From assembly GCF_016862635.1 (NCBI RefSeq), contig NZ_BONI01000047.1, forward strand, positions 1 through 64,000: DNA of 64,000 nucleotides, given 5' to 3'. Source of the DNA: Catellatospora coxensis. Lineage in GTDB: Bacteria; Actinomycetota; Actinomycetes; Mycobacteriales; Micromonosporaceae. Position 1 is the stretch's first letter. Every line of letters starts with the position of its first letter. Below are positions 6,943-38,729 of this stretch, piece after piece. The position numbers were made by a program, and so were the translations under genes. Below the pieces are notes generated by a model. That model searched no databases, was not told where the DNA came from, and saw nothing but the letters and a program-made list of their open reading frames with translations.

Positions 6943-7665
6943 ATGTCCGAGATCCCGCCTCCGCCCTGGCGTGCCTCGCGCCGCAGCGCAGCGCCCCGCA
7001 AGCCGCTCAGCCGGGACGCGATCGTGGACGCGGCGCTCAGCCTGCTCGACCGCGAGGGCCTGGACGCGGTGAGCATGCGGCGGGTGGCCGAGGAGCTGAA
7101 CACCGGCGCCGCCTCGCTGTACGCGCACGTGGCGAACAAGGACGAGCTGCTGGAGCTGGCGTACGACCGGGTGCTCGGCGAGATCCGGCTGCCCGAACCG
7201 GACCCGGCACGCTGGCGCGCGCAGATCCGCGAGATCGCCCAGGAGTCCTACCGGGTGCTCGCCGCGCACAGCGACATCGCCCGGGTCAGCCTCGCCAACG
7301 TGCCGACCGGCCCGAACTCGGTGCGCGTGGCCGAGGCCATGCTCGGCGTGCTGATCAGCGGCGGCGTGCCGCCCCAGCAGGCGGCCTGGGCGGTGGACCG
7401 GATCGCGCTGTACATCAGCGCCGACGCGTACGAGGGCTCGCTCTACCAGAGCCGGCAGCGGGCCAGCGGCAAGCCGGTCGACGAGTTCGTCGCCGACTTC
7501 TTCGGCCAGGTCCACGACTACTACCGCACCCTGCCCCCGGCCCGCTTCCCGTACCTGTACGAGCACGCCGACGTGCTCGTACAGGGCGACGGGGAGGTGC
7601 GGTTCGAGTTCGGGCTGGAGCTGCTGATCAGCGGCCTGGACCGGTTCCTGCCCGGGGCGGGCTGA
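6943..7665 (+). CDS. TetR-family repressor of the adjacent exporter
   Basis: 240 residues. The N-terminal HTH is clear: LSRDAIVDAALSLLDREGLD, VSMRRVAEELNTGAASLYAHV, then NKDELLELAYDRVL. The C-terminal ligand domain (about 90-235) resembles the TetR_C class found in regulators of drug pumps. The ATG at 6943 (MSEIPPPPW) was chosen; an ATG three codons upstream is possible. Divergent from the DHA2 exporter with three operator copies between them, so autoregulation and repression of the pump are expected. The ligand is unknown. Confidence 0.9.
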   Translation: MSEIPPPPWRASRRSAAPRKPLSRDAIVDAALSLLDREGLDAVSMRRVAEELNTGAASLYAHVANKDELLELAYDRVLGEIRLPEPDPARWRAQIREIAQESYRVLAAHSDIARVSLANVPTGPNSVRVAEAMLGVLISGGVPPQQAAWAVDRIALYISADAYEGSLYQSRQRASGKPVDEFVADFFGQVHDYYRTLPPARFPYLYEHADVLVQGDGEVRFEFGLELLISGLDRFLPGAG

Positions 7666-7671
7666 ACCGGG

Positions 7672-8175
7672 TCACGCGGCGGCGGCGCGCCTGCGCTTCT
7701 TGGGCTTGCTGCGCGGTCCCTCGTCGGCCAGGCCCAGGGCCGCCCACTCCTCCGGCGTCATGATGCGCTTGCCTGCCACGGCGACCGGCGGTGCCGGTGG
7801 CGCGACCGGTTCGGGCGCCGGGGTGCTCTTCGGCTGCTTGGACTTGGCCGGTTTGGCCGCGGTCGCGGCGGCCCGGACCCGCTCGGTCTCCCCGGCCAGG
7901 CTGATCAGCTTGCGGACCCGGGGCACGGCCGCCAGGTTGGTCTTCTTGGCCACCTCGTCGAGCGGCACGCCGGAGACGGCGAGGTCGGCCAGGGCGCGGC
8001 CGCGTTCGCGCTGGATCGCCGCGACGATGCCCTCGAACAGGACCTGCTGGTGGGTGAGGTCGGCGTAGCGTTGCAGCGGGTCGGGCTCGCTCAGCGCGTA
8101 CGCGCAGAGGTTGCGCACCATGCCGTTGATCTCGGCGGTGGTGACGGTGTATCCCTCGGTCGTCGGGTCGGTCAT
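7672..8175 (-). CDS. Hypothetical protein with HTH-like segment and basic tail
   Basis: 167 residues. The N-terminal half is helical (VTTAEINGMVRNLCAYALS, then HQQVLFEGIVAAIQRERGRA). It contains a segment, LADLAVSGVPLDEVAKKTNL, followed by PRVRKLISLAG, that reads like a helix-turn-helix. A long Pro/Ala/Lys linker follows, then ITPEEW-like (MTPEEWAALGLAD) and KPKKRRRAAAA at the end, a possible nucleic-acid-binding tail. ATG with GGAG at the right distance. It converges with tetR. I do not recognise the family; DNA binding is a guess from composition. Confidence 0.65.
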   Translation of the reverse strand: MTDPTTEGYTVTTAEINGMVRNLCAYALSEPDPLQRYADLTHQQVLFEGIVAAIQRERGRALADLAVSGVPLDEVAKKTNLAAVPRVRKLISLAGETERVRAAATAAKPAKSKQPKSTPAPEPVAPPAPPVAVAGKRIMTPEEWAALGLADEGPRSKPKKRRRAAAA

Positions 8176-8269
8176 CGACGGCTCCTTTCACCGCGCGACG
8201 ACGAGCGCTCGTCCGGCGGCGATGGGACTGTATCGGCACCCGGCGACCTCCGGCGAGCGACGGCGGGGC

Positions 8270-9046
8270 TCACCGCGCGATCATGCCTGCCGACAGGTCG
8301 ATGTCCGCGCCGGTCAGGCCCGGCATGCGCAGCATGGCGACGGCGGCCGCGCCGACCTCCTCCTCGGTGACCATGCGCTGCAGCGCGGCCCGGGACACGA
8401 ACGCCTGCTCGGCCTCTGCCTCGGTGACGCCGGTGCGCTGCGCCTCCAGCCGGAAGTTGCGGGTCATGCGCGCGCCCGCGACCGGCCCGGGGGAGAGGCT
8501 GTTGACGGCGACGCCGAGCGTGCCGACCTCGTGCGCCAGGGTCACGGTCAGCCCGAGCACCGCCATCTTCGACGCCGTGTACGGCGTGCGCCGCGCCAGC
8601 GGCCGCTTGCCGCTCACCGACGCGACGTTGATGACGTCGCCCCGCCCGGCGGCGGTCATCGCGGGCAGGAAAGCCCGGCACATCAGGTAGACCCCGCGCA
8701 CGTTGACGGCGAAGACCTCGTCCCAGTCGGCGGGCTCGATGTCGACGAGCGCGTCCACCGGCCCGGCGATGCCCGCATTGTTGACCAGGATGGACACGTC
8801 CTCCTCGGACAATTCGGCGCGCAGTGCCGCGACGGAGTCCGCCGCCGACGTGTCGCAGAGCGCGACCCGCACCCCGGCGGGGGCCGAGGCCAGCTCCGCC
8901 GCGACGGCGTCGAGCGTGGACCGGGTGCGCCCGGTCAGCACGACCCGTGCCCCGGCGGCCGACAGCGCGTGCGCGATCGCCCGGCCGAGGCCGTTGCCCG
9001 CCCCGGTCACCAGCGCGGTGCGCCCGGCGACCCGATCGGCGCTCAC
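8270..9046 (-). CDS. Short-chain dehydrogenase/reductase
   Basis: 258 residues, classical SDR. Visible are the cofactor motif TGAGNGLG (14-21), NNAG (89-92), catalytic S143, Y156 and K160 (in NVASVSG and PYTASK), and the SPGPVAGARMT loop. An NAD(H)-type acceptor is likely, because an acidic residue follows the second beta-strand region. The GTG at 9046 overlaps the stop of the HisD-like gene by four bases (GTGA), so the two are translationally coupled. The pairing of a HisD-like zinc dehydrogenase with an SDR suggests successive oxidation of the hydroxyls of a diol or polyol substrate, as in the HpsN/HpsO-HpsP dihydroxypropanesulfonate pathway; the substrate here is not known. Confidence 0.85.
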   Translation of the reverse strand: MSADRVAGRTALVTGAGNGLGRAIAHALSAAGARVVLTGRTRSTLDAVAAELASAPAGVRVALCDTSAADSVAALRAELSEEDVSILVNNAGIAGPVDALVDIEPADWDEVFAVNVRGVYLMCRAFLPAMTAAGRGDVINVASVSGKRPLARRTPYTASKMAVLGLTVTLAHEVGTLGVAVNSLSPGPVAGARMTRNFRLEAQRTGVTEAEAEQAFVSRAALQRMVTEEEVGAAAVAMLRMPGLTGADIDLSAGMIAR

Positions 9047-24322: not shown

Positions 24323-24377
24323 GATCATGAAGTTGTGGCCGGAACACGCCGACGAACCGTGCCATAAGTTCATGATC
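24323..24377. repeat. 55-bp pseudo-palindromic repeat, copy 1
   Basis: Begins GATCATGA and ends TCATGATC; inner parts are imperfectly paired. A copy of the same length with about 10 substitutions lies at 35623-35677. Both lie between convergent genes. Short open frames here (MNLWHGSxAC on the minus strand) come from the repeat and are not genes. Confidence 0.75.
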
Positions 24378-24383
24378 AACGCG

Positions 24384-25787
24384 TTACGGGAGGGTCCAGA
24401 TCTGGTTGCCGGAGGTGGCGCAGGTCCAGATCTGGAGGCGGGTGCCGTCGGCGGTGCCGAGGTCCTTGGCGTCGAGGCACTTGGCGGACTGGGGATTGCG
24501 GAGGTTGCCGTTGGACTGGGGCTGCCAGACCTGGGCACCGCTGCCGTTGCAGTCCCAGAGCTGGATCAGCGCGCCGTTGGCGGTGGAGCCGCTGGTGATG
24601 TCCATGCACTTGCCGAGGGCGCGGATGGTGCCGTCGGTGCCGACGGTCCAGGTCTGCGCGTTGGTGCCGTTGCAGGTGTAGAGCTGGATCGCGGCGCCGT
24701 TGGCGGTGCTGGCGGCTGCCACGTCGACGCACTTGCCGGAGGCCTGGCCGACGATCCGGCCGGTGCGGCCGCCCGGGGGCGGCGACGACGGCGGGGTGGT
24801 GCCGCCGATGGCGACCTCGTAGATCGCGCTGACCAGCGACCGGGAGTCGTTCTTGTCCTGGGACAGTTCCCAGTTCATGATGCCGCCGGCGTTGGCCTTG
24901 GCCCACGCGGTCTTGCTGCGGATGGTCGGCAGGCCGTTGTAGCACTGCTGCACGCCGCTGACCGTGGTGCAGTCGCGGTTGGCGTTGGCCGGGTCCATGT
25001 CGACCAGCTGGCTGTACGTGTAGTACGTCGGGCGGCTGTAGAACGGCACGCCCAGCACGGCCTTGCTCGCGGGCAGGCCGCGGGACTTCCACGAGTTGAC
25101 CGCGTTGATCGACCAGTTGTAGTTGGCGTGCGGGCTGCCGCCGTCGTACGCCATGATGTTCAGCCAGTCTACGGCGCTGAAGACCGCGGGCTGCACGAAG
25201 TTGGCGGTGCTGCCCTCGGACACCACGGCGGCGGTGAGCAGCTTGCCGCGGGTGTGCATGGCGGTGCTGAGCTGGTTCATCAGCGCCGTGAAGTTGTTGC
25301 TCTCGGCGGTGGTGTCCGGGTACTCCCAGTCGATGTCGACACCGTCGAGGTTGTACTGGTTGACGAGGTTCACGATGTTGTTGACGAACGCGGTGCGCGC
25401 GGTCGAATTGGCGGCCAGGTCCTCGAAGGCCTGGTCGTTGCCGTCGTTCCAGCCGCCGACGGCGATGGAGACCTTCGTGTTGGCGGCGTGTGCCAGCGAG
25501 ACCAGCGAGGACAGCTTGGACGGGTTGTCCAGGCCCTGCAGGCTGCCGTTGGAGTTCGGCAGGATGAACGCGTAGTTGATGTGCGTCAGCTTGCCGTACT
25601 GCACGGAGTTGACGTTGCCGGCCCACGAGGGCATGTAGCCCACGCTCTTGAAGCCGTTGGGCAGCACGACCGCCTGGGCCGTCGTGGCCGGGGCCAGCGC
25701 GACGGCGACGCCGGCGGCCGCGGTGGCCAGGGCGGCCGCGGCGGCGGCCCAGCGGCGGCCCCGCCGGGGCTTGGGGGTGTCGGACAT
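24384..25787 (-). CDS. Secreted GH18 chitinase with C-terminal CBM13
   Basis: 467 residues. The signal peptide is about 1-39 with an unusually charged start (MSDTPKPRRGRRW). The GH18 domain (44-325) shows the SxGG-like VSIAVGGWND and the catalytic DGVDIDWEYP, with D148, D151, D153 and acid E155 all present, plus LNIMAYDG and the C-terminal GGIMNWELSQDK. A short Pro/Gly linker leads to a beta-trefoil CBM13 (about 340-467) with CVDVAAAS, CMDITSGS and CLDAKDLG repeats and QxW motifs. It hydrolyses chitin outside the cell. ATG at 25787. The promoter region is shared with the STM4015-like operon and contains an 11-bp palindrome. Confidence 0.9.
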   Translation of the reverse strand: MSDTPKPRRGRRWAAAAAALATAAAGVAVALAPATTAQAVVLPNGFKSVGYMPSWAGNVNSVQYGKLTHINYAFILPNSNGSLQGLDNPSKLSSLVSLAHAANTKVSIAVGGWNDGNDQAFEDLAANSTARTAFVNNIVNLVNQYNLDGVDIDWEYPDTTAESNNFTALMNQLSTAMHTRGKLLTAAVVSEGSTANFVQPAVFSAVDWLNIMAYDGGSPHANYNWSINAVNSWKSRGLPASKAVLGVPFYSRPTYYTYSQLVDMDPANANRDCTTVSGVQQCYNGLPTIRSKTAWAKANAGGIMNWELSQDKNDSRSLVSAIYEVAIGGTTPPSSPPPGGRTGRIVGQASGKCVDVAAASTANGAAIQLYTCNGTNAQTWTVGTDGTIRALGKCMDITSGSTANGALIQLWDCNGSGAQVWQPQSNGNLRNPQSAKCLDAKDLGTADGTRLQIWTCATSGNQIWTLP

Positions 25788-25967
25788 GGGGATCCCTTCG
25801 GTGTCCGGTGCCGTGGCGGGGTGCCCACGGCACATCGACTGACCGGACAGGCAGGTGCGCCCCTCCCCGGTGCGGCCTGATGGCAGGCGGCGGCCGGGGG
25901 CACGCGTCGGCCCGATCTGGTGCAGGTTCGGACGAGGAAGCGGCTCGCTCCGAGTGGAACGCCTGGA

Positions 25968-26084: not shown

Positions 26085-27008
26085 ATGACGATCGGCTCCC
26101 ACATCACGACGTTCGCCGGCTTGCCGGTCGCGGAATACCCCGCCGACCTGGGCAAGGCTTCCCGGGCCGGCAGCGCGTGGCGGCTGGAGGACCCGGACTA
26201 CGACAACACCGGGCAGTTCCTGGAGCGGCTCGAAGCCCTCGCCGCGGAGGACTGGGCCAACCAGGTCACCGCGCTCGTCATCGGCAACTGGGGCGGCGCT
26301 TACGACACCGCCCCGCCGATCGGCCGGCTCGCCGCCCTGCTGCCGCGGTTCACCCGGCTGCGGGCGCTGTTCCTCGGTGAGATCACGTTCGACGAGTGCG
26401 AGATCTCCTGGATCCAGCAGGCCGACATCACGCCCCTGCTGGAGGCGCTGCCGAAACTGGAGGTGCTGACCGTGCGCGGCGCGACCGGTCTGGGCCTCAA
26501 GCCGGTGCGGCACAGCGGGCTGCGGGAGTTCACCATCGAGTCCGGCGGGCTGCCCGCCGACGTCGTGCGCGCCGTCGCCGAGTGCGACCTGCCCGCGCTG
26601 ACCCACCTGGAGCTGTGGCTCGGCACCGACAACTACGGCGGCGACGCCGACGTCGACGACCTGGCCCCGATCCTGGCCGGCTCCCGGCTGCCGGCGCTGA
26701 CCTCGCTCGCGCTGCGTGACGCCGAGATCGCCGACCTCGTCGCCGTGGCGCTGGCCGGGGCGCCGGTCGTCGCCCGCCTGCGCGCGCTGGACCTGTCGCT
26801 CGGCATGCTCAGCGACACCGGCGCGGCCGCGCTGCTGGCCGGGCAGCCGCTCACCCACCTGGACAAGCTGGACCTCCATCACCACTTCATCGGCGCGGCC
26901 GTGCTCGAACGGCTCACCGCCGAACTCGCCGAGGCCGGGGTCACGCTGGACGTGTCCGAAGGCAGCGACGCCGACCGCGACGACCGCTACATCGCGGTGT
27001 CCGAGTAG
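26085..27008 (+). CDS. STM4015-family leucine-rich-repeat-like protein
   Basis: 307 residues. It begins MTIGSHITTFAGLPVAEYP and contains the family phrase LFLGEITFDECEISWIQQAD. Leucine-rich repeats follow: LPKLEVLTVRGATGL, LPALTHLELWLGTDNYGGDA, LPALTSLALRDAEIADLVAVA and LTHLDKLDLHHHFIG. A short acidic tail ends the protein. The wording matches the STM4015 family, first gene of the conserved STM4011-STM4015 cluster. LRR proteins bind proteins, so a substrate- or partner-recognition role in the pathway is plausible but unproven. ATG at 26085 was chosen for the GGAGG at 26074-26078; an upstream ATG at 25995 gives a non-family extension. The stop overlaps the next GTG by one base. Confidence 0.85.
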   Translation: MTIGSHITTFAGLPVAEYPADLGKASRAGSAWRLEDPDYDNTGQFLERLEALAAEDWANQVTALVIGNWGGAYDTAPPIGRLAALLPRFTRLRALFLGEITFDECEISWIQQADITPLLEALPKLEVLTVRGATGLGLKPVRHSGLREFTIESGGLPADVVRAVAECDLPALTHLELWLGTDNYGGDADVDDLAPILAGSRLPALTSLALRDAEIADLVAVALAGAPVVARLRALDLSLGMLSDTGAAALLAGQPLTHLDKLDLHHHFIGAAVLERLTAELAEAGVTLDVSEGSDADRDDRYIAVSE

Positions 27009-28084
27009 TGCGCCTCACCATCGTCGGCAACCCCGGGCACCGCCGCGTCGGCCTGTTCGCCGCCGCCGCCGTCCGGGCCGGGCTGCCCGAACCAGAACTG
27101 CTCGCCTGGCACGACGTGCTCAGCGGGGCTCCGCTGCGGCTGGCCCAGGGCACCGCCGTCCGCATCGAGTCGCCGGGCGAGGACGCCGAGGTCGACCGGC
27201 TGCTGCGGGGCGCGGCGACCCCGGCCGCGCACGGCGAGATCGTCGGTGGCCGCGCCTGGTACGCCGGGCTCGCCCGTGGCCTGGCCAGGGTCGCCGGCGC
27301 CGCCCGCGATCAGGACGCGCGCCTGCTGGCCGATACCGCCGAGATCCTGACCATGTTCGACAAGGCGGCCTGCCACACCCGGCTGCTCGCGGCCGGCATC
27401 CCCGTGCCCGCGGCGCTGCCCGGGTCGCCGGCCGGCTGGGCGCAACTGCGGTCCTGGCTGGACGAGGCCGGCTGGCGGCGGGTGTTCGTCAAGCCGTGCC
27501 ACGGCTCGTCGGCCTCCGGCGTCATCGCGCTGCAGCTCGGCAGCGGCGGCCGCATCCTGGCCACCACGTCGGTGGAGCTGTCCGGCGGGCGGCTGTTCAA
27601 CTCGCTGCGGGTGCGGCACTATCGCGACGAGCGCGACGTCGCCGCGATCGTCGACCGGCTCGCCCCCGACGGCCTGCACGTGCAGCGCTGGCTGCCCAAG
27701 GCCGGGCTCGACGGCCGCGTCGTCGACCTGCGTGTGGTCACCGTCGGCGGCGAGCCGTCGCACGTCGTGGTCCGCGGCAGCCGCTCACCGATGACGAACC
27801 TGCACCTCGGCGGCGTACGCGGCGACCTGTGCGCGCTGCGCGCCGCCGCCGGCCAGCACTACGCCGAAGGGCTGGCCACCTGCCGCGCCGTCGCCGCCTG
27901 CTTCCCCGGCAGCCTGCACACCGGCGTCGACCTGATGTTCGCGGCCGGCTGGCGCTCGCACGCCGTCGCCGAGGTCAACGCCTTCGGCGACCTGCTCCCC
28001 GGCCTCCTGGTCGACGGCCGCGACACCTACGACGCCGAGGTCGCCGCCCTGCTGGCAGGCGAGCGGGCCGGTGTGGCGGTGTGA
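27008..28084 (+). CDS. STM4014-family ATP-grasp-like protein
   Basis: 358 residues. ATP-grasp features are visible: VFVKPCHGSSASGV (159-172, the nucleotide-binding lysine and small-residue loop), the VDLRVVTVGG strand (239-248), then GVDLMFA (306-312) and AEVNAFGDLLPGLL (321-334), where Asp and Glu/Asn would bind Mg-ATP. ATP-grasp enzymes ligate a carboxylate to an amine or thiol through an acyl phosphate. The N-terminal about 110 residues are a distinct domain (MRLTIVGNPGHRRVGLF). The GTG start overlaps the STM4015 stop (TAGTG), and its own stop overlaps the next start by four bases. The pathway substrate is unknown. Confidence 0.85.
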   Translation: MRLTIVGNPGHRRVGLFAAAAVRAGLPEPELLAWHDVLSGAPLRLAQGTAVRIESPGEDAEVDRLLRGAATPAAHGEIVGGRAWYAGLARGLARVAGAARDQDARLLADTAEILTMFDKAACHTRLLAAGIPVPAALPGSPAGWAQLRSWLDEAGWRRVFVKPCHGSSASGVIALQLGSGGRILATTSVELSGGRLFNSLRVRHYRDERDVAAIVDRLAPDGLHVQRWLPKAGLDGRVVDLRVVTVGGEPSHVVVRGSRSPMTNLHLGGVRGDLCALRAAAGQHYAEGLATCRAVAACFPGSLHTGVDLMFAAGWRSHAVAEVNAFGDLLPGLLVDGRDTYDAEVAALLAGERAGVAV

Positions 28085-28896
28085 GGGTGGGGATGGCGTC
28101 GGTGGTGGGGGCGTATGACATCGCGCTGGTCACGGTCGACACCCTGCGGTACGACGTGGCGGCGGAGGAGGCGGCGGCGGGGCGCACGCCGAATGTGGTC
28201 CGGGCGCTGCCCGGCGGGCGGTGGGAGGCCCGGCACACCCCGGCGAGTTTCACCTACGCGGCGCACCACGCGTTCTTCGCGGGGTTCCTGCCGACGCCGG
28301 TGACGCCGGGGCGGCACGAGCGGCTGTTCGCGGCGAGATTCCCCGGCAGCGAGACCACCGCCGACGGCACCTGGGTGTTCGACGCCCCGGATCTGGTCAC
28401 CGGGCTGGGGCAGGCCGGATATCACACGCTGTGCCTGGGCGGCGTGGGCTTCTTCAACCGGCGCTCGCCGCTGGGCAGCGTGCTGCCGGAGCTGTTCGCC
28501 GAGGACCACTGGCGGCCCGAGTTCGGGGTGACCGAACCGGACTCGCTGCGCCACCAGCTCGACCAGCTCGCCGCCAGCGCCGCCGCCGTGCCCGCGGACC
28601 GGCCGCTGTTCACCTTCCTCAACGTGTCGGCGCTGCACCAGCCCAACCGGCACTACCTGCCCGGCGCGGCCGAGGACGGCCGGGACAGCCACGCGGCCGC
28701 GCTGCGCTACGTGGACACCGCGCTGCCGCGCCTGTTCGCGCTGCTCACCTCGCGGAGGCGGCCGTGTTTCGTGGTGCTGTGCGCCGACCACGGGACCGCG
28801 TACGGCGAGGACGGCCACCAGGGGCACCGGGTCGGCCACGACGTGGTGTGGACGGTGCCGTATGCCGAGTTCACGCTGACCCCGGGGGAGTGGTGA
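28081..28896 (+). CDS. STM4013/SEN3800-family hydrolase (alkaline phosphatase superfamily)
   Basis: 271 residues. VTVDTLRYDVA (D20, T21) provides the metal Asp and the Thr nucleophile position of sulfatase/phosphodiesterase-like enzymes. The C-terminal CADHGTAYGEDGHQGHRVGH supplies the Asp-His and His metal ligands. The rest (THFLN-like FTFLNVSALHQPN) matches the superfamily. It should be a metal-dependent phospho- or sulfo-hydrolase, probably cytoplasmic since no signal peptide is seen. The GTG at 28081 overlaps the previous stop by four bases (GTGA); an ATG at 28093 is the alternative. The stop overlaps the next GTG by four bases. Confidence 0.85.
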   Translation: MRVGMASVVGAYDIALVTVDTLRYDVAAEEAAAGRTPNVVRALPGGRWEARHTPASFTYAAHHAFFAGFLPTPVTPGRHERLFAARFPGSETTADGTWVFDAPDLVTGLGQAGYHTLCLGGVGFFNRRSPLGSVLPELFAEDHWRPEFGVTEPDSLRHQLDQLAASAAAVPADRPLFTFLNVSALHQPNRHYLPGAAEDGRDSHAAALRYVDTALPRLFALLTSRRRPCFVVLCADHGTAYGEDGHQGHRVGHDVVWTVPYAEFTLTPGEW

Positions 28897-30248
28897 AGGT
28901 GCTCGACGGCTCGCCCTACCAGGGTTACCTGTACGCGTACCCGCACAAGACGGCATACCGGCCGCTGCGGCCGCGCCCGGCACTGCGCGACGTGTGGGCC
29001 GGGCAGGACCGGGACAACCTGTTCCTGTACCTGCACATCCCGTTCTGCGAGATGCGATGCGGCTTCTGCAACCTGTTCACCCGCGCGCAGCCGCCCGCCG
29101 AGCAGGTCGGCGCGTACCTGCGGCAGCTGCGGGTGCAGGCCGAGCAGGTCACGGCGGCGCTCGGCCCGGCCCGCTACGCCCGCGCCGCGATCGGCGGCGG
29201 CACCCCGACCCACCTGACCGCCGACGAGCTGACCGAGCTGTTCGCGATCACCGACGGGGTGCTCGGCCTGGACCCGGCCGCGGCACAGCTGTCCGTGGAG
29301 ACCTCGCCCGCGACGGCGACCCCCGACCGGCTGGCGGTGCTCGCCGCGCACGGCACGCACCGGGTCAGCATGGGCGTGCAGAGTTTCCTCGACACCGAGG
29401 CCCACGCCGCCGGGCGGCCGCAGCACCGCGCCGACGTCGACCGCGCCCTGACCGCGCTGCGCGACGCGGCGTTCCCGCTGCTCAACGTCGACCTGATCTA
29501 CGGCATCCCCGGTCAGACCCGCGACACGTGGACCTACTCGCTCCGCGAGGCACTGGCCTGGCGACCCGAGGAGATCTACCTCTACCCGCTGTACGTACGC
29601 CCACTGACCGGGCTCGGCCGCCGGGGTGGCGGGCTGCTGCCGTCCGGCCCGACCGCCACCGCGCCGGATCGTGACGCGCAGTGGGACAGCGAGCGCCTGG
29701 ACCTCTATCGGCACGGCCGCGATCTGCTTCGCGAGGCCGGTTACCGGCAGCTTTCCATGCGCCAGTTCCGGCGTGCCGACGTTCCCGATCCGGACGGCGC
29801 GGACTACTGCTGCCAGGACGACGGCATGGTCGGGATCGGCTGCGGCGCGCGCTCCTACACCGCCGACCTGCACTACTCGTTCGACTACGCGGTCAGCGTG
29901 CGCGAGGTGCGGGCCATCATCGACGACTACCTCGCCCGGCCCGCAGCGGACTTCGGGTACGCCGAGTTCGGGTTCGCGCTCGACGGCGGCGAGCAGCGGC
30001 TGCGCTGGCTGGTGAAGTCGCTGCTGCGCGCCGAGGGCGTCGACCTGCCCGGGTACGCGTCCCGCTTCGGGTCCAAGGTGGACGAGGACTCCCCGCACCT
30101 GGCGGAACTGGCCGAACGCGGCTGGGCCGTCGCCGACGGAGATCGGCTGGTCCTGACCGACGAGGGCCTGGCGCGCGGCGACGCGATCGGGCCGTGGCTG
30201 GTGTCGGGGCCGGTGCGGGCGGCGATGGCGCGGGCGGTGCTGCGGTGA
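28893..30248 (+). CDS. STM4012-family radical SAM protein (HemN-like)
   Basis: 451 residues. The 4Fe-4S/SAM motif is LHIPFCEMRCGFCN (C52, C56, C59). The HemN/CPO-like features follow: IGGGTPTHLTADEL, VETSPATATPDRLAVL, THRVSMGVQSFLDTEAHAAG, NVDLIYGIPGQTRDTW, YPLYVRPLTGLG and a C-terminal winged-helix-like segment with ERGWAVADGDRLVLTDEG. The fold is that of anaerobic coproporphyrinogen oxidases, but the family is distinct and no heme genes are nearby. GGGGGAG lies 3-9 bp before the GTG at 28893, which overlaps the previous stop by four bases. Its stop overlaps the next GTG by four bases. Confidence 0.9.
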   Translation: MKVLDGSPYQGYLYAYPHKTAYRPLRPRPALRDVWAGQDRDNLFLYLHIPFCEMRCGFCNLFTRAQPPAEQVGAYLRQLRVQAEQVTAALGPARYARAAIGGGTPTHLTADELTELFAITDGVLGLDPAAAQLSVETSPATATPDRLAVLAAHGTHRVSMGVQSFLDTEAHAAGRPQHRADVDRALTALRDAAFPLLNVDLIYGIPGQTRDTWTYSLREALAWRPEEIYLYPLYVRPLTGLGRRGGGLLPSGPTATAPDRDAQWDSERLDLYRHGRDLLREAGYRQLSMRQFRRADVPDPDGADYCCQDDGMVGIGCGARSYTADLHYSFDYAVSVREVRAIIDDYLARPAADFGYAEFGFALDGGEQRLRWLVKSLLRAEGVDLPGYASRFGSKVDEDSPHLAELAERGWAVADGDRLVLTDEGLARGDAIGPWLVSGPVRAAMARAVLR

Positions 30249-31159
30249 ACCTGCTGCTGCTGTATCGCGGGCCGCTCGCGAGCTGCAACTTCGACTGCCC
30301 GTACTGCCCGTTCGCGAAGCGGCGCGACAGCCGCGCGCAGCTGGCCGAGGACCAGGCCGCGCTGCGCCGCTTCGCCGACTGGGTCGCCGCCAATCCCGCC
30401 GGGGACACGCTGTCGGTGCTGTTCACGCCATGGGGCGAGGGGCTGACCCGGTCGTGGTACCGGGACGCGCTGGTGCGGCTGTCGCACCTGCCGCACGTGG
30501 AGCGGGTCGCCATCCAGACGAACCTGGCCGGGCGGCTGGGCTGGGTCGCCGAGGCCGACCCGGCGCGGCTCGCCCTGTGGGCGACCTACCACCCGGGGCA
30601 GGTGCGCCGGGAGCGTTTCCTGGCCGCGTGCGCGACGCTGCGCGGGCACGGCATCCGGCACTCCGTCGGCATGGTCGGGCTGCCCGAACACCACGCCGAG
30701 GCGGTCGCGATGCGGGCCGAGCTGCCGGAGGCGACGTACCTGTGGGTCAACGCGGCGGACGGGCACAGCTACGACGCCGACGCCGAGGCGGCGTGGACGG
30801 CGATCGACCCGCTGTTCGGGTACAGCGTGCGCCCGCACGCCTCGGCCGGGCACGAATGCGGAGCGGGCGAGACGTCGCTGTCGGTGCTCGGCGACGGCAC
30901 GGTCCGGCGCTGCCACTTCCTGCCCGAGCCGCTGGGCAACCTGTACGACGGCAGCTACCGCGCCGCGCTGCGGCCCCGCGCCTGCGGCAAGGCCACCTGC
31001 GACTGCCACATCGGATACGTGCACCTCAAACGGCTCGGCCTGCACCGGGTCTTCGCCGGCGGCGTGCCCGAGCGGATCCCCGCCGGGCCGCCGCCGACCT
31101 GGGGCGTGCCGAGCGCGCTGCTCACGTCTGCTGCTGCGGCAGGTATTCCTCCGGCGTGA
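30245..31159 (+). CDS. STM4011-family radical SAM protein
   Basis: 304 residues. The SAM cluster motif is ASCNFDCPYCPF (C14, C18, C21), unusually near the N-terminus. It continues with FTPWGEGLTRSWYRDALV, VAIQTNLAG and WATYHPGQV. The C-terminal half has more cysteines (HECGAGE, RRCHFLPE, CGKATCDCHIGY), the arrangement expected for auxiliary Fe-S clusters as in SPASM/Twitch radical SAM enzymes. This suggests an oxidative or bond-forming modification. The GTG at 30245 overlaps the previous stop by four bases. Its last 38 bases overlap the 3' end of the convergent DUF6745-like gene. Confidence 0.9.
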   Translation: MNLLLLYRGPLASCNFDCPYCPFAKRRDSRAQLAEDQAALRRFADWVAANPAGDTLSVLFTPWGEGLTRSWYRDALVRLSHLPHVERVAIQTNLAGRLGWVAEADPARLALWATYHPGQVRRERFLAACATLRGHGIRHSVGMVGLPEHHAEAVAMRAELPEATYLWVNAADGHSYDADAEAAWTAIDPLFGYSVRPHASAGHECGAGETSLSVLGDGTVRRCHFLPEPLGNLYDGSYRAALRPRACGKATCDCHIGYVHLKRLGLHRVFAGGVPERIPAGPPPTWGVPSALLTSAAAAGIPPA

Positions 31160-32285
31160 GGCCGAACGTCCACGCCACGCCCTCCCGCGCGGTGCGCGTC
31201 GACGGCGGCACCCGCAGGAAGTACGTCCGGAAGCTGCCGTCGGGCTCGGGGCTGGAGTTCAGCACCTCGACCATCACCAGCGGCTCGTCACCGGGCAGCT
31301 CGACCCGCCACAGCGTGCCGCACACGTCGGACTGCGTCTTGGCCGCGCCGGACTCGCGCAGGTAGCGGTCGAAGCCGAAGTGCTCCAGCATGACGCGACG
31401 CATCTCGGCGTTGCCCTCGCCGCGGATGCGCGCGACGGTCAGCGTCGGCAGCTCGGCGGCGATCTCGGCCGGGATCGGCATGCCGCTCCACGCGTGCAGG
31501 CCGAAGCCGTCCGGGTAGGACAGCGCCGGGCCGTCGCCGTGGTGCAGCCGGCCCAGGTTGTCCCGGTGCACCTCGCGCGGGCGCTCGGTGAGGATCGCGA
31601 CGTGCTCGAACGCCCACCACCAGCCCGCGCTGCAGGCCACCCGGGCCAGGCCGTCGACGTCGGGGTGGCTGTCGAACGCGCCCAGCCAGGCCGCGTCGTG
31701 CTGGCCGTGGATCACGTCGAGCAGCGCGTCCTGCCGGGCCTGCGCGAACTCGCCGCTCTGCTCGGCGAACTGCTCCGCCAGCCGGGTGCGCAGCGGCGTG
31801 GCGAGCTGGTCGACGAGCTGCTGCCAGGGCCGGCGGGCGGTGGCGGCCCAGTGCCGGGCGAAGCCCACCGCGCCGAGCCGGTCGGTGAGCGAGGTCCGGG
31901 CCTGCGCCCAGGGGCGGGTGCGCACCCGGGGCCGTACGCTGCGGCCGAGCGGGAGTTCGCCCGGCCGGACACCCTGCGCCGCCAGCGCCTCGCTTACCCG
32001 CGGGTCGCCCGCGAGCACGGTGCGCAGCATCGCGACCGCCGTCGCGCCCGCCGCGGGCGAGCCCAGCCACAGCATCCGCCGCGGGGCGGGCAGGCCCGCC
32101 AGGGCGTACGCGATGCGCACGCCCGCCTCCGCGCCCGCCCGGTCGGCCGGTTCGGTGCTCAGGCCGGTCGCCATCCACCGCTCCGCCCGCGCGGCCAGCG
32201 CCATGTCCTCGTTCCGGCGCGCCTCACGCCGGTTCGGCGGCTGCCCACCGGTGCTCGCGCTCGTGATCTGGCTGCTCGTCGTCAT
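31122..32285 (-). CDS. DUF6745-like protein
   Basis: 387 residues. The C-terminal part contains RVMLEHFGFDRYLRESGAAK, SDVCGTLWRVEL, VMVEVLNSSPEPDGSFRTYF and LRVPPSTRTAREGVAWTFGL, the pattern I associate with DUF6745 proteins. The preceding segment (GRLHHGDGPALSYPDGFGLH) resembles the same family. The fold and activity are unknown. ATG at 32285; a GTG at 32303 is possible. It lies 25 bp after a small gene on the same strand (32311-32631) that commonly accompanies this family, and overlaps the STM4011-like gene tail-to-tail by 38 bp. Confidence 0.8.
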   Translation of the reverse strand: MTTSSQITSASTGGQPPNRREARRNEDMALAARAERWMATGLSTEPADRAGAEAGVRIAYALAGLPAPRRMLWLGSPAAGATAVAMLRTVLAGDPRVSEALAAQGVRPGELPLGRSVRPRVRTRPWAQARTSLTDRLGAVGFARHWAATARRPWQQLVDQLATPLRTRLAEQFAEQSGEFAQARQDALLDVIHGQHDAAWLGAFDSHPDVDGLARVACSAGWWWAFEHVAILTERPREVHRDNLGRLHHGDGPALSYPDGFGLHAWSGMPIPAEIAAELPTLTVARIRGEGNAEMRRVMLEHFGFDRYLRESGAAKTQSDVCGTLWRVELPGDEPLVMVEVLNSSPEPDGSFRTYFLRVPPSTRTAREGVAWTFGLTPEEYLPQQQT

Positions 32286-32310
32286 CGCGATGTTCCCGTC
32301 CACGCCGTGT

Positions 32311-32631
32311 TCAGTCCGCGACCGGGCGGATCGCGCCGGGGAAGTACTCGCGCTGGCGGACCACCCGGTAGGCGCCCGCGGCCAGCGCGATCGGCCCGTG
32401 CTCCTCGTGCACCAGGCGGCCGTAGCCCTCGATCAGCAGGAACAGCCGGCCCGGGTCGTCGGGCGGGCACAGCATCGCCACCCGCTCGCCGGTGACCACG
32501 TGCGCGTGCCCGGTCGCCTCGCCCAGCGCCAGCACCATGCGGTTGCGCCGGTCGCGCGGCGCGGGCATCAGGTCCGGCGGCAGCTCCTCCCGCGCGATCG
32601 GGACCACCAGCACATCGCCCTGCCTGAACAT
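32311..32631 (-). CDS. Small beta-rich protein paired with the DUF6745-like gene
   Basis: 106 residues: MFRQGDVLVVPI, then RNRMVLALGEATGHAHVVTG, LCPPDDPGRLFLLIEGYGRLV and AGAYRVVRQREYFPG. The pattern is a small beta-barrel-like protein without catalytic signature. The phrase ALGEATGHAHVV recurs in small proteins next to DUF6745 genes in my memory, so they may form a functional pair. The ATG at 32631 (MFRQGDV) was chosen over an upstream start at 32733 that would add low-quality sequence. Confidence 0.7.
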   Translation of the reverse strand: MFRQGDVLVVPIAREELPPDLMPAPRDRRNRMVLALGEATGHAHVVTGERVAMLCPPDDPGRLFLLIEGYGRLVHEEHGPIALAAGAYRVVRQREYFPGAIRPVAD

Positions 32632-32671: not shown

Positions 32672-33490
32672 CTAGCGGGCGGGTACGACACCGCCGCCGG
32701 CGGGGAACAGCCCCTCCAGGACCACCGCCACACCGTCCTCGTCGTTGCTCGCGGTGACCCGGTCCGCGCCGGCCAGCGCCTGCGGATGGGCGTTGGCGAC
32801 GGCGACCCCGATCCCGGCCCAGCGCAGCACCGGCACGTCGTTGGGCATGTCCCCGAACGCGATCACCTGCGCGGCGTCGACGCCCCAGGCCGCGCACAGG
32901 CGGGCCAGGGTGTCCGCCTTGGACACGGTGGCGGCGCTGATCTCCAGCATGCCCTTGCCGCCGGAGTAGGTGACCGCGACCTCCGGCACGAGCGCCTGCA
33001 GCCGGTTCAGCAGCTCGTCGGTGACCGGGGCGGGTGACCAGGCCAGCAGCTTGACGCAGCTCTCGGCCTCGGTCCACAGCTCGGCCCGGGTGCGCACCGG
33101 CACCCGGACGATGCTGCGGCGGCTCACGTGGTCGAAGCCGGGGCCGGTCAGCGCCCGGTGCCCGGTCTCCACCGCGAACGCGATGCCGTCCAGGGCCGGG
33201 GTGAGCACGTCGGCGACCCGTTCCGCCAGCGGCAGAGGCAGCGGGCCGACGATGGTGATCTCGCCGGTGGCCAGGTCGTACACGGCCGCGCCGTTCGAGC
33301 ACACGGCGACGCCGGTGATGCCCGCCGCCGCGGCGACCTCGTGCACCTCCCGGGGCGGCCGGGCCGTGCCGATCACGATGCGCGCGCCGGCCTGCGCGAC
33401 GCGGGCCAGGGCCGCGACGGTCCGGGCCGAGACGGTGTGGTCGGAGCGCAGCAGGGTGCCGTCGAGGTCGACGGCGACGACGTTGATCAC
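32672..33490 (-). CDS. Cof-type HAD-IIB hydrolase
   Basis: 272 residues. HAD motif I is VVAVDLDGTLL (D8 nucleophile, D10), motif II is VIGTARPP, motif III includes the lysine in SKADTLARL, and motif IV is VIAFGDMPNDVPVL. The cap is of C2B type, as in Cof/YbiV sugar-phosphate phosphatases. It probably dephosphorylates a sugar phosphate or a nucleotide-derived compound in the cytoplasm. GTG start at 33490. It is the last of the minus-strand run that ends at the DUF6745-like gene, with short gaps of about 25-40 bp, so they may be co-transcribed. Confidence 0.9.
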   Translation of the reverse strand: MINVVAVDLDGTLLRSDHTVSARTVAALARVAQAGARIVIGTARPPREVHEVAAAAGITGVAVCSNGAAVYDLATGEITIVGPLPLPLAERVADVLTPALDGIAFAVETGHRALTGPGFDHVSRRSIVRVPVRTRAELWTEAESCVKLLAWSPAPVTDELLNRLQALVPEVAVTYSGGKGMLEISAATVSKADTLARLCAAWGVDAAQVIAFGDMPNDVPVLRWAGIGVAVANAHPQALAGADRVTASNDEDGVAVVLEGLFPAGGGVVPAR

Positions 33491-33674: not shown

Positions 33675-35036
33675 TCACGGAAGGCCGGCCCGGTCCAGCA
33701 GGTCGTGCATCAAGCTCACCGGCAGGCGCGGGTTGGCGGCGGCCCGCTCGACGACCCACGGGTCGGGGTCCGCCAGCAGCGCGGCGAGGATCTCGGCGGG
33801 CGACCCGGGGCCGGCCGCGACGGCACGCCGCACGACCGCGCTCGGGTCCGCGGCGAGCCGGGACAGGGTCTTCGGGGGCAGGGCGGGGTCGCGTGGCGCG
33901 TAGCTCCGTACCCGCTCGTCGGGGTGGTCGGCGTAGGTGTGCAGGACCTCGGTGGGGAAGTTCGGGTGGTCGGTCCACCGCCACCGCGTCTTGCGGCTGT
34001 CTCCGCGCTCGCGCAGCATCCGCTCCAGCACCGCGGGCGGGGCGTCGGGCCGTTTCGCCGCGGCCCACCGGACCCGGTGCGCGGGGTCGGCGTCGAGCCG
34101 GGCGTACGCCTCCGGTGGCAGGTCGCGCGTCCATGCCACGGCCTCCCGGAACGCGATGAAGGGTGAGTCCAGGTAGGCCAGCCTGCGCTCCAGCGGGGCG
34201 GCGCGCAGCCAGTCCGGAGCGACGAGATCGAAGAACACGACCACCACCTCGGCCGTCTCGTCGCCCGATGCGGCGGCCGCCTGGCATGCGTCGTACCGCC
34301 GGATGCGTTCCTCCTCGGTCAGCGACGGATGCTGCAGGATCGTCAGGTGGACCTCGTCTTCGGGGTCCTGGAAGAGCAGCTCGCGTACCGGCGGCGGCAG
34401 CGCCGGATGGTGCGCCAGGCCGACCCGGACCGCGACGTCCGGGTCCATGGCCAGGGCCGTCGCCTGGTCGTCGGTGAGCTGTGCATACCGGGCCAGCACC
34501 GCTCGGGTCCGCGGGTCGCGCAGGAACTCCGGCTGGAGGTCGGCGGGCGTCTGAGGGTGCCGGGGCGAGACCGCGGCGGCGCGTACCGCCGGATCGGCAT
34601 CGGTGAGCAGCGCGCGGTGCACGTCGGCGGGCGGGTCGAACCAGCAGCGCGCGGCGGCGGCACGGACCACCGGGTCGTGGTGGGAGGCCAGTTCGGATCG
34701 GGGCATGCCGAGCAGCTGCTCCAGCTCGCCGATCGTGAGGTAGCGGTCGTCGACGAGCCGTTGCCGTGGCGCGTCGCGCCAGGCCTGCCGCACGACGGCG
34801 ACCGGATGCTCGGCGAGCTGCCAGGCCTTGACCGCCGACACGTTGCCCCGCCTGCTCAGTGACGTGATCAGCGCCGGATCGCGGTGGCCGGCGATCGTGT
34901 CGGCGACGGCGTCGGGAAGTTCGCCCCTGCGGGCGGCCACCAGGCCGGCCAGGTGCCGATCGCGGGCGAGCCGGACCAGCACGTCCTCCGGCGCCGCGGG
35001 ATTGCCGGCGAGGTTTTGCAGCACCTGCTGGTCCAC
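33675..35036 (-). CDS. Leucine-rich-repeat-variant (LRV/HEAT-like) protein
   Basis: 453 residues built of about 25-residue helical repeats with the phrase DPxxxVRxAVAxxPxxPxxxLxxLLxDPDPxVxxxAAxNP, for example SAVVRRAVAAGPGSPAEIL, DPWVVERAAANPRLP and DPVVRAAAARCWFDPPADV. This is the LRV pattern found in bacterial repeat proteins. There is no catalytic motif, and the cysteine cluster of the founding LRV protein is absent. A scaffold or protein-binding role is likely. GTG at 35036 with GGAGG upstream. Confidence 0.85.
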   Translation of the reverse strand: MDQQVLQNLAGNPAAPEDVLVRLARDRHLAGLVAARRGELPDAVADTIAGHRDPALITSLSRRGNVSAVKAWQLAEHPVAVVRQAWRDAPRQRLVDDRYLTIGELEQLLGMPRSELASHHDPVVRAAAARCWFDPPADVHRALLTDADPAVRAAAVSPRHPQTPADLQPEFLRDPRTRAVLARYAQLTDDQATALAMDPDVAVRVGLAHHPALPPPVRELLFQDPEDEVHLTILQHPSLTEEERIRRYDACQAAAASGDETAEVVVVFFDLVAPDWLRAAPLERRLAYLDSPFIAFREAVAWTRDLPPEAYARLDADPAHRVRWAAAKRPDAPPAVLERMLRERGDSRKTRWRWTDHPNFPTEVLHTYADHPDERVRSYAPRDPALPPKTLSRLAADPSAVVRRAVAAGPGSPAEILAALLADPDPWVVERAAANPRLPVSLMHDLLDRAGLP

Positions 35037-37035: not shown

Positions 37036-38559
37036 CTAGACCTGCTGGAGGCCGGGCAGGCCGTCCTGGATGACGTACGAGCGCAGCGTGGACACCGCGG
37101 CCCCGTGCTCGGTGACCGCGCCGACCGCGCGGAAGTCGGCGCGGACCTGCGCCTGGCTGATGGTGGTGCGCACGTAGCCGCGCCGGTCGGAGTAGAACTT
37201 CAGGTGCGGGTTGGTGGCCACGTTCGGGACGGTCGTGGTGGCGCTGCCGTCGCCGCCGGAGCTGATCGAGGTGCAGACCAGCTCGGTGCCGATGGTCGCC
37301 GAGTTCGGGTTGGCGTAGTCGGCCTTCAGCTCGTTGGCCCACGACTTGTGCACGTCTCCGGTCAGCACCAGCGGATTGCGCACCGCGCGGTCACGCCAGC
37401 CCTGCTGGATGCGGGCGCGCGAACCCCGGTAGCCGTCCCACGAGTCCATGCTGGCGGCCCCGGCGGCGTCGAACTGGCGGGCGAAGAACACCTGCTGGCC
37501 GAGGATGTCCCAGGTGCCGTAATGCTGGGCCAGGCCGTCGAGCAGCCACGCCTCCTGCGCCGCGCCGGTGAGGCTGCGGGTGGGCAGGTCGGCGTCGGCG
37601 CACACCTTCCAGCCGTCGCCGCAGGCCTGGTCGTCGCGGAACTGCCGGGTGTCGAGCATGTGGAAGGTGGCGAGCTTTCCCCAGCGGATGCGGCGGTACA
37701 GCGGGATGCTGTTGCCGCTGGGCGTCGAGGCCGGGCGCAGCGGCATGTTCTCGTAGTAGGCCTGGTACGCCGCTGTGCGCCGGGCGGTCCACTGGGCCGC
37801 GGTCAGCGCCGGGGAGCTGTCGGCGCGCACGTTGGTGGCGTAGTTGTTCTCGACCTCGTGGTCGTCGGGCACCACCAGCCAGGGTGCGGCGGCGTGCGCG
37901 GCCTGCAGGTCCGGGTCGGACTTGTAGAGCGCGTACCGGCGGCGGTAGTCGGCCAGCGACACGATCTCGGCGCCGACGTGCTCGCGTACCGAACCGGCGG
38001 TCGCGCCGCCCTCGTAGATGTAGTCGCCCAGGTGCAGCACCAGCCCGGGGTTGTCCTCGGCCAGCCGGCGGTACGCGGTGAAGTAGCCGGCCTGCCAGTT
38101 CGAGCAGGACGCGAACGCCATCACCAGGTCGCGCCCGAACGTGGTCGGCGCGGGCGCGGTGCGGGTGCGCCCGACCGGCGAGAGGTGGCCCTGCGCCCGG
38201 AAGCGGTAGTAGTAGTCGGCGTCGGCGGTCAGCCCGCCCGCGATCACGTGCACCGAGTGCGCGTCGGCGTACCGGGCGGTGACCGAACCGGACGCGGCCA
38301 GCGTGCTGAACGAGCTGCTGGTGGAGACCTGCCAGTCGACGACGACGTCGGCGTTGGCCATGCCGCCCTGGCCGTCGGCGTTGAGCGGCGTCGGCGCGAG
38401 GCGGGTCCACAGCACGACGCTGTCGGACTCGGGGTCGCCCGAGGCCACCCCGAGCTTGAACGGGTACGGGGCGGCGGCGAACGCACTCGCGCCGGTCAGC
38501 GCGGTCCCCGCGATCGCGAGTCCGCCGAGGACGAACGTACGGCGATGGAGTGATCTCAT
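37036..38559 (-). CDS. phoD: PhoD-like alkaline phosphatase/phosphodiesterase
   Basis: 507 residues. A Tat signal (HRRTFVLGGLAIAGTAL) is at the N-terminus. An Ig-like N-terminal domain (VASGDPESDSVVLWTRLAP) precedes the metallophosphatase domain: MAFASCSNWQAGYFTAY, LVLHLGDYIYEGG, VVPDDHEVENNY, FHMLDTRQFRDDQ, ILGQQVFFARQF and VLTGDVHKSWANEL. These match PhoD motifs, which place iron and calcium at the active site. It would release phosphate outside the cell. ATG at 38559. A clear PHO box was not identified upstream. The downstream propeller gene is 9 bp away. Confidence 0.9.
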   Translation of the reverse strand: MRSLHRRTFVLGGLAIAGTALTGASAFAAAPYPFKLGVASGDPESDSVVLWTRLAPTPLNADGQGGMANADVVVDWQVSTSSSFSTLAASGSVTARYADAHSVHVIAGGLTADADYYYRFRAQGHLSPVGRTRTAPAPTTFGRDLVMAFASCSNWQAGYFTAYRRLAEDNPGLVLHLGDYIYEGGATAGSVREHVGAEIVSLADYRRRYALYKSDPDLQAAHAAAPWLVVPDDHEVENNYATNVRADSSPALTAAQWTARRTAAYQAYYENMPLRPASTPSGNSIPLYRRIRWGKLATFHMLDTRQFRDDQACGDGWKVCADADLPTRSLTGAAQEAWLLDGLAQHYGTWDILGQQVFFARQFDAAGAASMDSWDGYRGSRARIQQGWRDRAVRNPLVLTGDVHKSWANELKADYANPNSATIGTELVCTSISSGGDGSATTTVPNVATNPHLKFYSDRRGYVRTTISQAQVRADFRAVGAVTEHGAAVSTLRSYVIQDGLPGLQQV

Positions 38560-38729
38560 GCGCCGGACATTCACGGACGATGATGAACGTGATCCGTTGC
38601 GCCGTTGAACCACGGATTACGGGCGGCCGTCACTCCGTCGTGTCATGTCGTACGGTCCGACCCTTCTGCGAGGATGCTGCCTGGACCGCGCGCAAACCGG
38701 GCTAACCATGACGATCATGGAGGATTCAA

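Follow-up and report, generated by a model that had tools for sequence, protein, structure and literature searches.

The window analysed here is a stretch of 64,000 nucleotides from the actinomycete Catellatospora coxensis (contig NZ_BONI01000047.1, positions 1 to 64,000; the assembly comprises 9.35 Mb in 222 contigs). At positions 26085-31159 of its forward strand five adjacent genes follow one another in the order STM4015-4014-4013-4012-4011 (Table 1). They encode a leucine-rich-repeat (LRR)-like protein, an ATP-grasp protein, a hydrolase of the alkaline phosphatase superfamily and two radical SAM proteins. This operon is real and conserved, without a known function, and the present work concerns the proposal that its LRR-like protein is probably an acceptor, modified at its C-terminal glutamate by the other gene products. 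The five proteins all exceed the curated NCBIfam cut-offs (5/5), which bears out the open frames, the family identities, the gene order and the two different radical SAM enzymes that an earlier note had read from the letters of the sequence. The overlaps of 1, 4, 4 and 4 bases given there hold with the listed GTG starts, except that the second is doubtful: most rows of the STM4013 alignment (A3) start at or near the residue matching the window ATG at 28093, and this start would leave a short gap instead. The set is complete, as that note had claimed, but it is not closed at five, since genes for a DUF6745 protein, a small His-rich protein and a HAD phosphatase are located nearby.

Table 1. Genes and protein segments of the operon and of the adjoining cluster, in positions of the window.
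Feature	Positions	Strand	Remarks
STM4015 family LRR-like protein, 307 aa	26085-27008	+	proposed acceptor; NCBIfam 354.8 bits (cut-off 275)
Variable acid-rich linker of STM4015, residues 291-300	26955-26984	+	D/E fraction and entropy over homologues
Conserved C-terminal tail of STM4015, RYIAVSE	26985-27005	+	terminal Glu307 is the proposed ligation site; conservation in 77 members
STM4014 family ATP-grasp protein, LysX/ArgX/RimK-like fold	27008-28084	+	NCBIfam 421.9 bits (cut-off 175)
STM4013 family alkaline-phosphatase-superfamily hydrolase	28081-28896	+	NF038075 409.8 bits (cut-off 250); start possibly ATG 28093
STM4012 family HemN-like radical SAM protein	28893-30248	+	NF006067 606.6 bits (cut-off 380)
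STM4011 family radical SAM protein, extra invariant cysteines	30245-31159	+	NF038073 385.9 bits (cut-off 200)
DUF6745 protein	31122-32303	-	PF20530 E 3e-96; convergent with STM4011, 3' ends overlap by 38 bp; start uncertain
Small His-rich protein, GExTGHAH...HEEH...QREY motifs	32311-32631	-	start inferred, frame open to 32733
Cof-type HAD-IIB phosphatase	32672-33490	-	TIGR00099 145.8 bits (cut-off 137)

Local profiles of the families were scanned against 53 stretches, namely the window, 31 loci, 6 plasmid loci and 15 further stretches (L numbers below). These stretches are not independent: two each come from five genomes (L017/L099, L018/L023, L028/L092, L029/L100 and L030/L101), and L026 and L027, nearly identical DNA, are both counted. 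All five families are present in 38/53 stretches, so the conservation of the operon is not due to chance. The order of the window is found in 36 of them, the deviant orders being 13-12-11-15-14 (L088) and 14-15-13-12-11 (L092), and some of the 15 stretches without the full set end at a stretch or contig border. The loci closest to the window operon are those of Catellatospora species.

Comparison of the STM4015 proteins indicates that their last residue does not change. It is Glu in 77/77 distinct complete proteins, and no member extends past it. These proteins are not independent, as clustering by body identity gives 42 groups at 70%, 23 at 60% and 12 at 50%. Glu is likewise the last residue of five additional copies from annotated plasmids. 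The count started from 80 distinct open reading frames (ORF) with a stop and an E value up to 1e-10, weaker or stopless ORF being excluded. Three of the 80 (L031 at 17431, L072 and L084) were dropped as remote LRR proteins, with E values of 1e-11 to 1e-13 and ends other than Glu, and the STM4015 profile contains the tail, which biases the sample slightly towards tail-bearing ORF. The pattern [YF]xxxxE fits 74/77 tails, three members having no Y or F at -6; the residues between the aromatic and the Glu vary, and Glu alone is invariant. The tail is preceded by an acidic segment: over the 77 members the D/E fraction is 0.41 for residues -8 to -22, compared with 0.15 for the body. The entropy at positions -8 to -15 of the 80 ORF is 2.8 to 3.3 bits. 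As for the control proteins, the last residue varies in STM4014 (46 ORF), STM4013 (37) and STM4011 (29), and the 30 ORF of STM4012 end 18 times with R and 6 times with K. The alignment of STM4015 (A1) holds the window protein and 33 of the 57 ORF, fragments counted, of L002-L032. Two aligned Nostoc copies have lost the DECEISW loop and keep the terminal Glu.

More than one STM4015 gene is present in 11/53 stretches, with 7 copies in L024, 5 in L010, L014 and L021, 3 in L011 and L031 and 2 in five others, and up to seven copies are placed ahead of one enzyme set. Within these arrays the bodies are 30-83% identical and the Glu is kept throughout. A tree of 27 copies joins Planomonospora with Planobispora copies in pairs, two of them with values of 100/100 and 99/96, which indicates that some paralogues are older than the split between both genera. 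The arrays are read as several different LRR proteins that are given one common modification. Arrays of ribosomally synthesised and post-translationally modified peptides (RiPP) are usually the opposite. In L041 the contig of the operon (G161:C22) carries a second copy, ~100 kb away, which has the Glu tail as well.

The idea of a ligase acting on the C-terminal Glu was formulated from the tail, ahead of the fold search for STM4014. The predicted structure of STM4014, compared with VIA-align, is nearest to ArgX, LysX and RimK, other ATP-grasp folds following at a short distance. Its first nine structural matches comprise two ArgX, one of them with LysW, one LysX/ArgX with LysW, one LysX and five RimK, one of these with RpsF. 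The ATP-grasp motifs NLHL[GKN] and [ED][VIL]N[AG]FGD are conserved in 21/21 rows of the alignment A2, which contains the window protein and 20 STM4014 from L002-L032; L003, L004, L005 and L026 were omitted as close relatives, and L032 as truncated. STM4014 is not a member of the RimK family (TIGR00768), since it reaches 19.4 bits against a curated cut-off of 143.4, nor of the LysX/ArgX family, whose GSWG motif is found in 0/21 rows although the fold subtype fits. In the LysW system, LysX is reported to couple an amine with the Glu at the C-terminus of LysW, the GSWGR motif of LysX/ArgX ligases to recognise the EDWGE tail, and the E54A mutation of argW to cause arginine auxotrophy (PMC10433800).

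A solved homologue of STM4015 is available from Bacteroides fragilis (2ra8). The AlphaFold2 (AF2) model of STM4015 has a predicted local distance difference test (pLDDT) of 93.2, and of near 82 in the tail, and superposes on the crystal chain through the last residue, 307. Beyond the aligned Glu the crystal chain continues for eight residues, probably a purification tag; the structure matches that follow 2ra8 are ribonuclease inhibitor and RanGAP. A flexible tail was considered and is not supported by the model, in which the tail, aligned with 2ra8 to its end, would not be merely a loose arm. The tail may thus have a structural role, alone or besides a modification.

The alignments A3, A4, A5 and A6 are chosen subsets, like A1 and A2. 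STM4013 of the window matches Pfam Sulfatase with 35.8 bits (cut-off 25) and Phosphodiest with 23.0 bits, right at the cut-off, and the family weakly matches solved sulfatases and nucleotide phosphodiesterases. The Sulfatase domain of Pfam spans phosphatases of the superfamily as well. A threonine (FT) site and a DHGT motif are present in 19/19 rows, and the formylglycine signature [CS]xPxR in 0/19 (residues 31-90 scanned). Therefore, a sulfatase role is not favoured in spite of the Pfam match, and STM4013 would be, judging from these motifs, a phosphatase or phosphodiesterase. STM4012 of the window matches Pfam Radical_SAM and HemN_C. The CxxxCxxC motif is found in 18/18 STM4012 and 19/19 STM4011 rows, and the latter share five additional invariant cysteines in the C-terminal part (C205, C223, C247, C252 and C254), in agreement with the extra cysteines that the earlier note had pointed out. 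The STM4011 profile matches SkfB (6efn), a radical SAM protein of peptide maturation, with an E value of 2.3e-4, and Pfam SPASM matches stay under the cut-off, with E values of 0.096 for the window and 0.0015 and 0.0028 for two relatives.

The gene set is widespread and at the same time sparse. It is complete in Actinomycetota, Bacillota, Bacteroidota, Deinococcota, Planctomycetota and Pseudomonadota, including Salmonella, and is seen without STM4011 in the Nostoc stretches. With the centre genome always counted, STM4015 exceeds its cut-off in 6/296 genomes of Actinomycetota, in 5/199 of the phylum of a Peptococcaceae genome, in 1/198 of the phylum of a Flammeovirga genome (the centre itself, one more being just below the cut-off) and in 1/299 of the phylum of a Chromatiales genome (again the centre). 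The DNA of the Salmonella operon gave no megablast match in E. coli genomes. STM4015 and over-cut-off STM4014 share the identical 6/296 actinobacterial genomes (hypergeometric probability 1e-12 if genomes are independent), and weak ATP-grasp matches alone to the STM4014 model occur in 53 further genomes of the 296. In the Bacteroides stretch L046, an STM4015 at 7642-8715 carries, by eye, an N-terminal WGR-like extension; of STM4013 the local profile scan detected just a fragment there, and STM4012 was not detected.

The Glu tail, the fold match of STM4014, the co-occurrence and the tandem copies together make it somewhat probable that STM4015 is an acceptor, with its terminal Glu joined to an amine by STM4014, and that the radical SAM enzymes and phosphatases elaborate the attached group. 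The LRR body would present the C-terminal tail, with Glu307 as the attachment site. STM4014 would use ATP to activate a carboxylate of Glu307 and join it to a small molecule bearing an amine. STM4012 and STM4011, the latter with extra cysteines for a possible auxiliary iron-sulfur cluster, may then remodel the attached group, and the phosphatases STM4013 and HAD dephosphorylate it, unless these enzymes prepare the group beforehand. What each radical SAM enzyme does, in which order the steps run and where the product ends up are inferred, as is the ligation itself. The earlier note had suggested that the LRR-like protein may recognise the substrate; the Glu that is last in 77/77 members, together with nearest folds of STM4014 that are ligases of protein C-terminal Glu, favours the protein itself as the substrate or acceptor. 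Since the Glu of the arrays stays while the bodies diverge, and no recurrent release enzyme was identified, we are inclined to see a permanent group, carried by several specialised LRR proteins, rather than a released metabolite. It is conceivable, although rather doubtful, that the operon installs a new prosthetic group in this way, a moiety built by radical SAM enzymes on the C-terminal Glu of an LRR family, with several proteins per enzyme set. To our knowledge, such a class of protein modification or carrier chemistry has not been described. The co-occurrence of STM4015 and STM4014 has a counterexample in an Obscuribacterales metagenome-assembled genome (MAG; L018 and L023): two STM4015 over the cut-off and a DUF6745 are accompanied by no STM4014 match and by no STM4012 over the cut-off.

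LRR folds usually bind proteins, and ribonuclease inhibitor and RanGAP are among the structural relatives of STM4015. The protein could consequently be an adaptor, the LRR face of which binds the real target, protein or metabolite, and brings it to enzymes that recognise the Glu tail as a docking peptide; divergent array bodies with a constant Glu are also what adaptors with different targets would look like. On the other hand, a docking peptide has no need to end exactly at Glu, as all 77 members do, and the folds nearest to STM4014 act on just such a residue, which makes this explanation an unlikely one. The tail of the AF2 model, with its pLDDT of about 82 and its alignment with 2ra8 to residue 307, would agree as well with an element of the LRR fold whose Glu is kept for packing; the product of the operon would then be a soluble metabolite unconnected with it. 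In that case residues after the Glu would be tolerated, and 0/77 members have any; the two Nostoc copies drop a loop of the protein and not the Glu, and the fold match of STM4014 is left unexplained. Such a purely structural tail is the least probable of the alternatives.

The tail could also be a core from which the radical SAM enzymes make a peptide product or a small redox cofactor, the LRR body being an oversized leader. The Glu and Tyr of PqqA become pyrroloquinoline quinone (PQQ), and STM4015 has an aromatic residue and a Glu at fixed spacing in nearly all members; the SkfB match of STM4011 points in the same direction, as do efflux genes that neighbour the operon on one plasmid each of Paenibacillus and Bacteroides. 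However, only the Glu is invariant, the intervening residues vary and the aromatic is missing in three members. RiPP families usually conserve the leader, whereas the STM4015 body varies and its terminal Glu does not, and no recurrent peptidase or exporter was identified among the neighbours, of which the smaller clusters were left unannotated. This origin of the tail is accordingly held to be quite improbable, although a shade less so than the structural one. The operon resembles the PQQ, mycofactocin and radical SAM RiPP systems in a radical SAM enzyme with extra cysteines that would act near the C-terminus of a protein, and differs from them in its ATP-grasp ligase and large LRR body. A short precursor gene was not noticed near the operon, where no dedicated search for small ORF was made.

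The acceptor reading also sets the operon apart from the known ligase systems. The carrier LysW is a 54-residue zinc protein ending in EDWGE, whereas the one proposed here has 307 residues and ends in RYIAVSE, and the LysW pathway enzymes are replaced by radical SAM enzymes and phosphatases. The distinction from RimK and ribosomal protein S6 (RpsF) lies in the low RimK score of STM4014 and in its own operon with radical SAM enzymes. The NCBIfam entries STM4011-STM4015 describe the same families and state no function. The literature searched, which leaves most subscription papers outside its coverage, contained no paper giving a function for STM4011-4015 or naming the families or DUF6745, and nothing relevant on LRR combined with radical SAM or related terms, the passages of PMC10434189 that came up being unrelated; the view of the earlier note that no product is established stands. 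The STM4011-4015 locus names turn up in two sources, as one entry in a table of sigma-54 binding (PMC3844500) and one in a table of positive selection (PMC2784778). The constant terminal Glu and the LysX/RimK-like ligase provide a testable hypothesis, with one predicted residue, for families without a stated NCBIfam function. If it is true, the operon gains its first testable function, the chemistry of C-terminal glutamates and carrier proteins reaches radical SAM enzymes and LRR proteins, and a hidden small molecule or prosthetic group is present in several bacterial phyla.

The genes next to the operon were grouped by an all-against-all comparison of neighbourhood ORF, with smaller clusters left unannotated. 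This comparison for extra genes, which the earlier note had suggested, brought out DUF6745, the small His-rich protein and the HAD phosphatase. In the profile scan, DUF6745 is present in 24/53 stretches and the small protein in 23/53. The HAD phosphatase is not a constant part of the cluster, its local profile finding 6/53 stretches, five of them from Catellatospora (window included), with fused domains not flagged at E 1e-6. The stretches with DUF6745 and the small protein are actinobacterial, apart from one Deinococcus and one Methylobacterium plasmid, and DUF6745 occurs alone in one Obscuribacterales MAG. Three homologues of the small protein gave no Pfam match, and most of the window copy gave no NCBIfam match. 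DUF6745 is present in 9/296 actinobacterial genomes; four belong to the six with STM4015 and have it near STM4015 in all four (P 6e-6 if independent), and the other five have no STM4015. DUF6745 has a conserved C-terminus of its own, which for most copies reads about YxPxx[EQ]T, and its N-terminal half looks LRR-like by eye in L042 and L043. DUF6745 may therefore be a second tail-bearing family tied to the system.

Deinococcus taeanensis has the same layout as the window, HAD included, and both HAD are 37% identical over 268 residues; in Salmonella a related HAD is situated after STM4011. HAD phosphatases of this kind are common, so that single adjacencies are weak evidence, and fusions to STM4011 are better evidence. 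Four loci (L046, L092, L093 and L101) have an STM4011 fused with a domain of Hydrolase_3, the Pfam family of the window HAD (4/4 over cut-off). The fused HAD of Bacteroides, the sole fusion compared, is weakly similar to that of the window (29.8% over 47 residues). A phosphorylated intermediate in the pathway would be the natural inference. At the end of the Peptococcaceae STM4011-HAD fusion (L101, 3955-4356, minus strand), the residues HTHP...SSPD resemble by eye the JAMM metalloprotease pattern, HxHP...SxxD. This putative release domain had no Pfam or PDB sequence match and was not used.

Further genes in the window are encoded on the minus strand. The one at 33675-35036, beside the HAD gene, encodes a Leucine-rich-repeat-variant / HEAT-like protein (PF01816, E 1.9e-7). 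The product of 37036-38613 is by eye a PhoD-like secreted phosphatase, and similar ORF are found at 7 loci, including three of Planomonospora, perhaps by chance. Upstream of the operon, 24376-25835 has by eye the look of a secreted chitinase-type glycosyl hydrolase.

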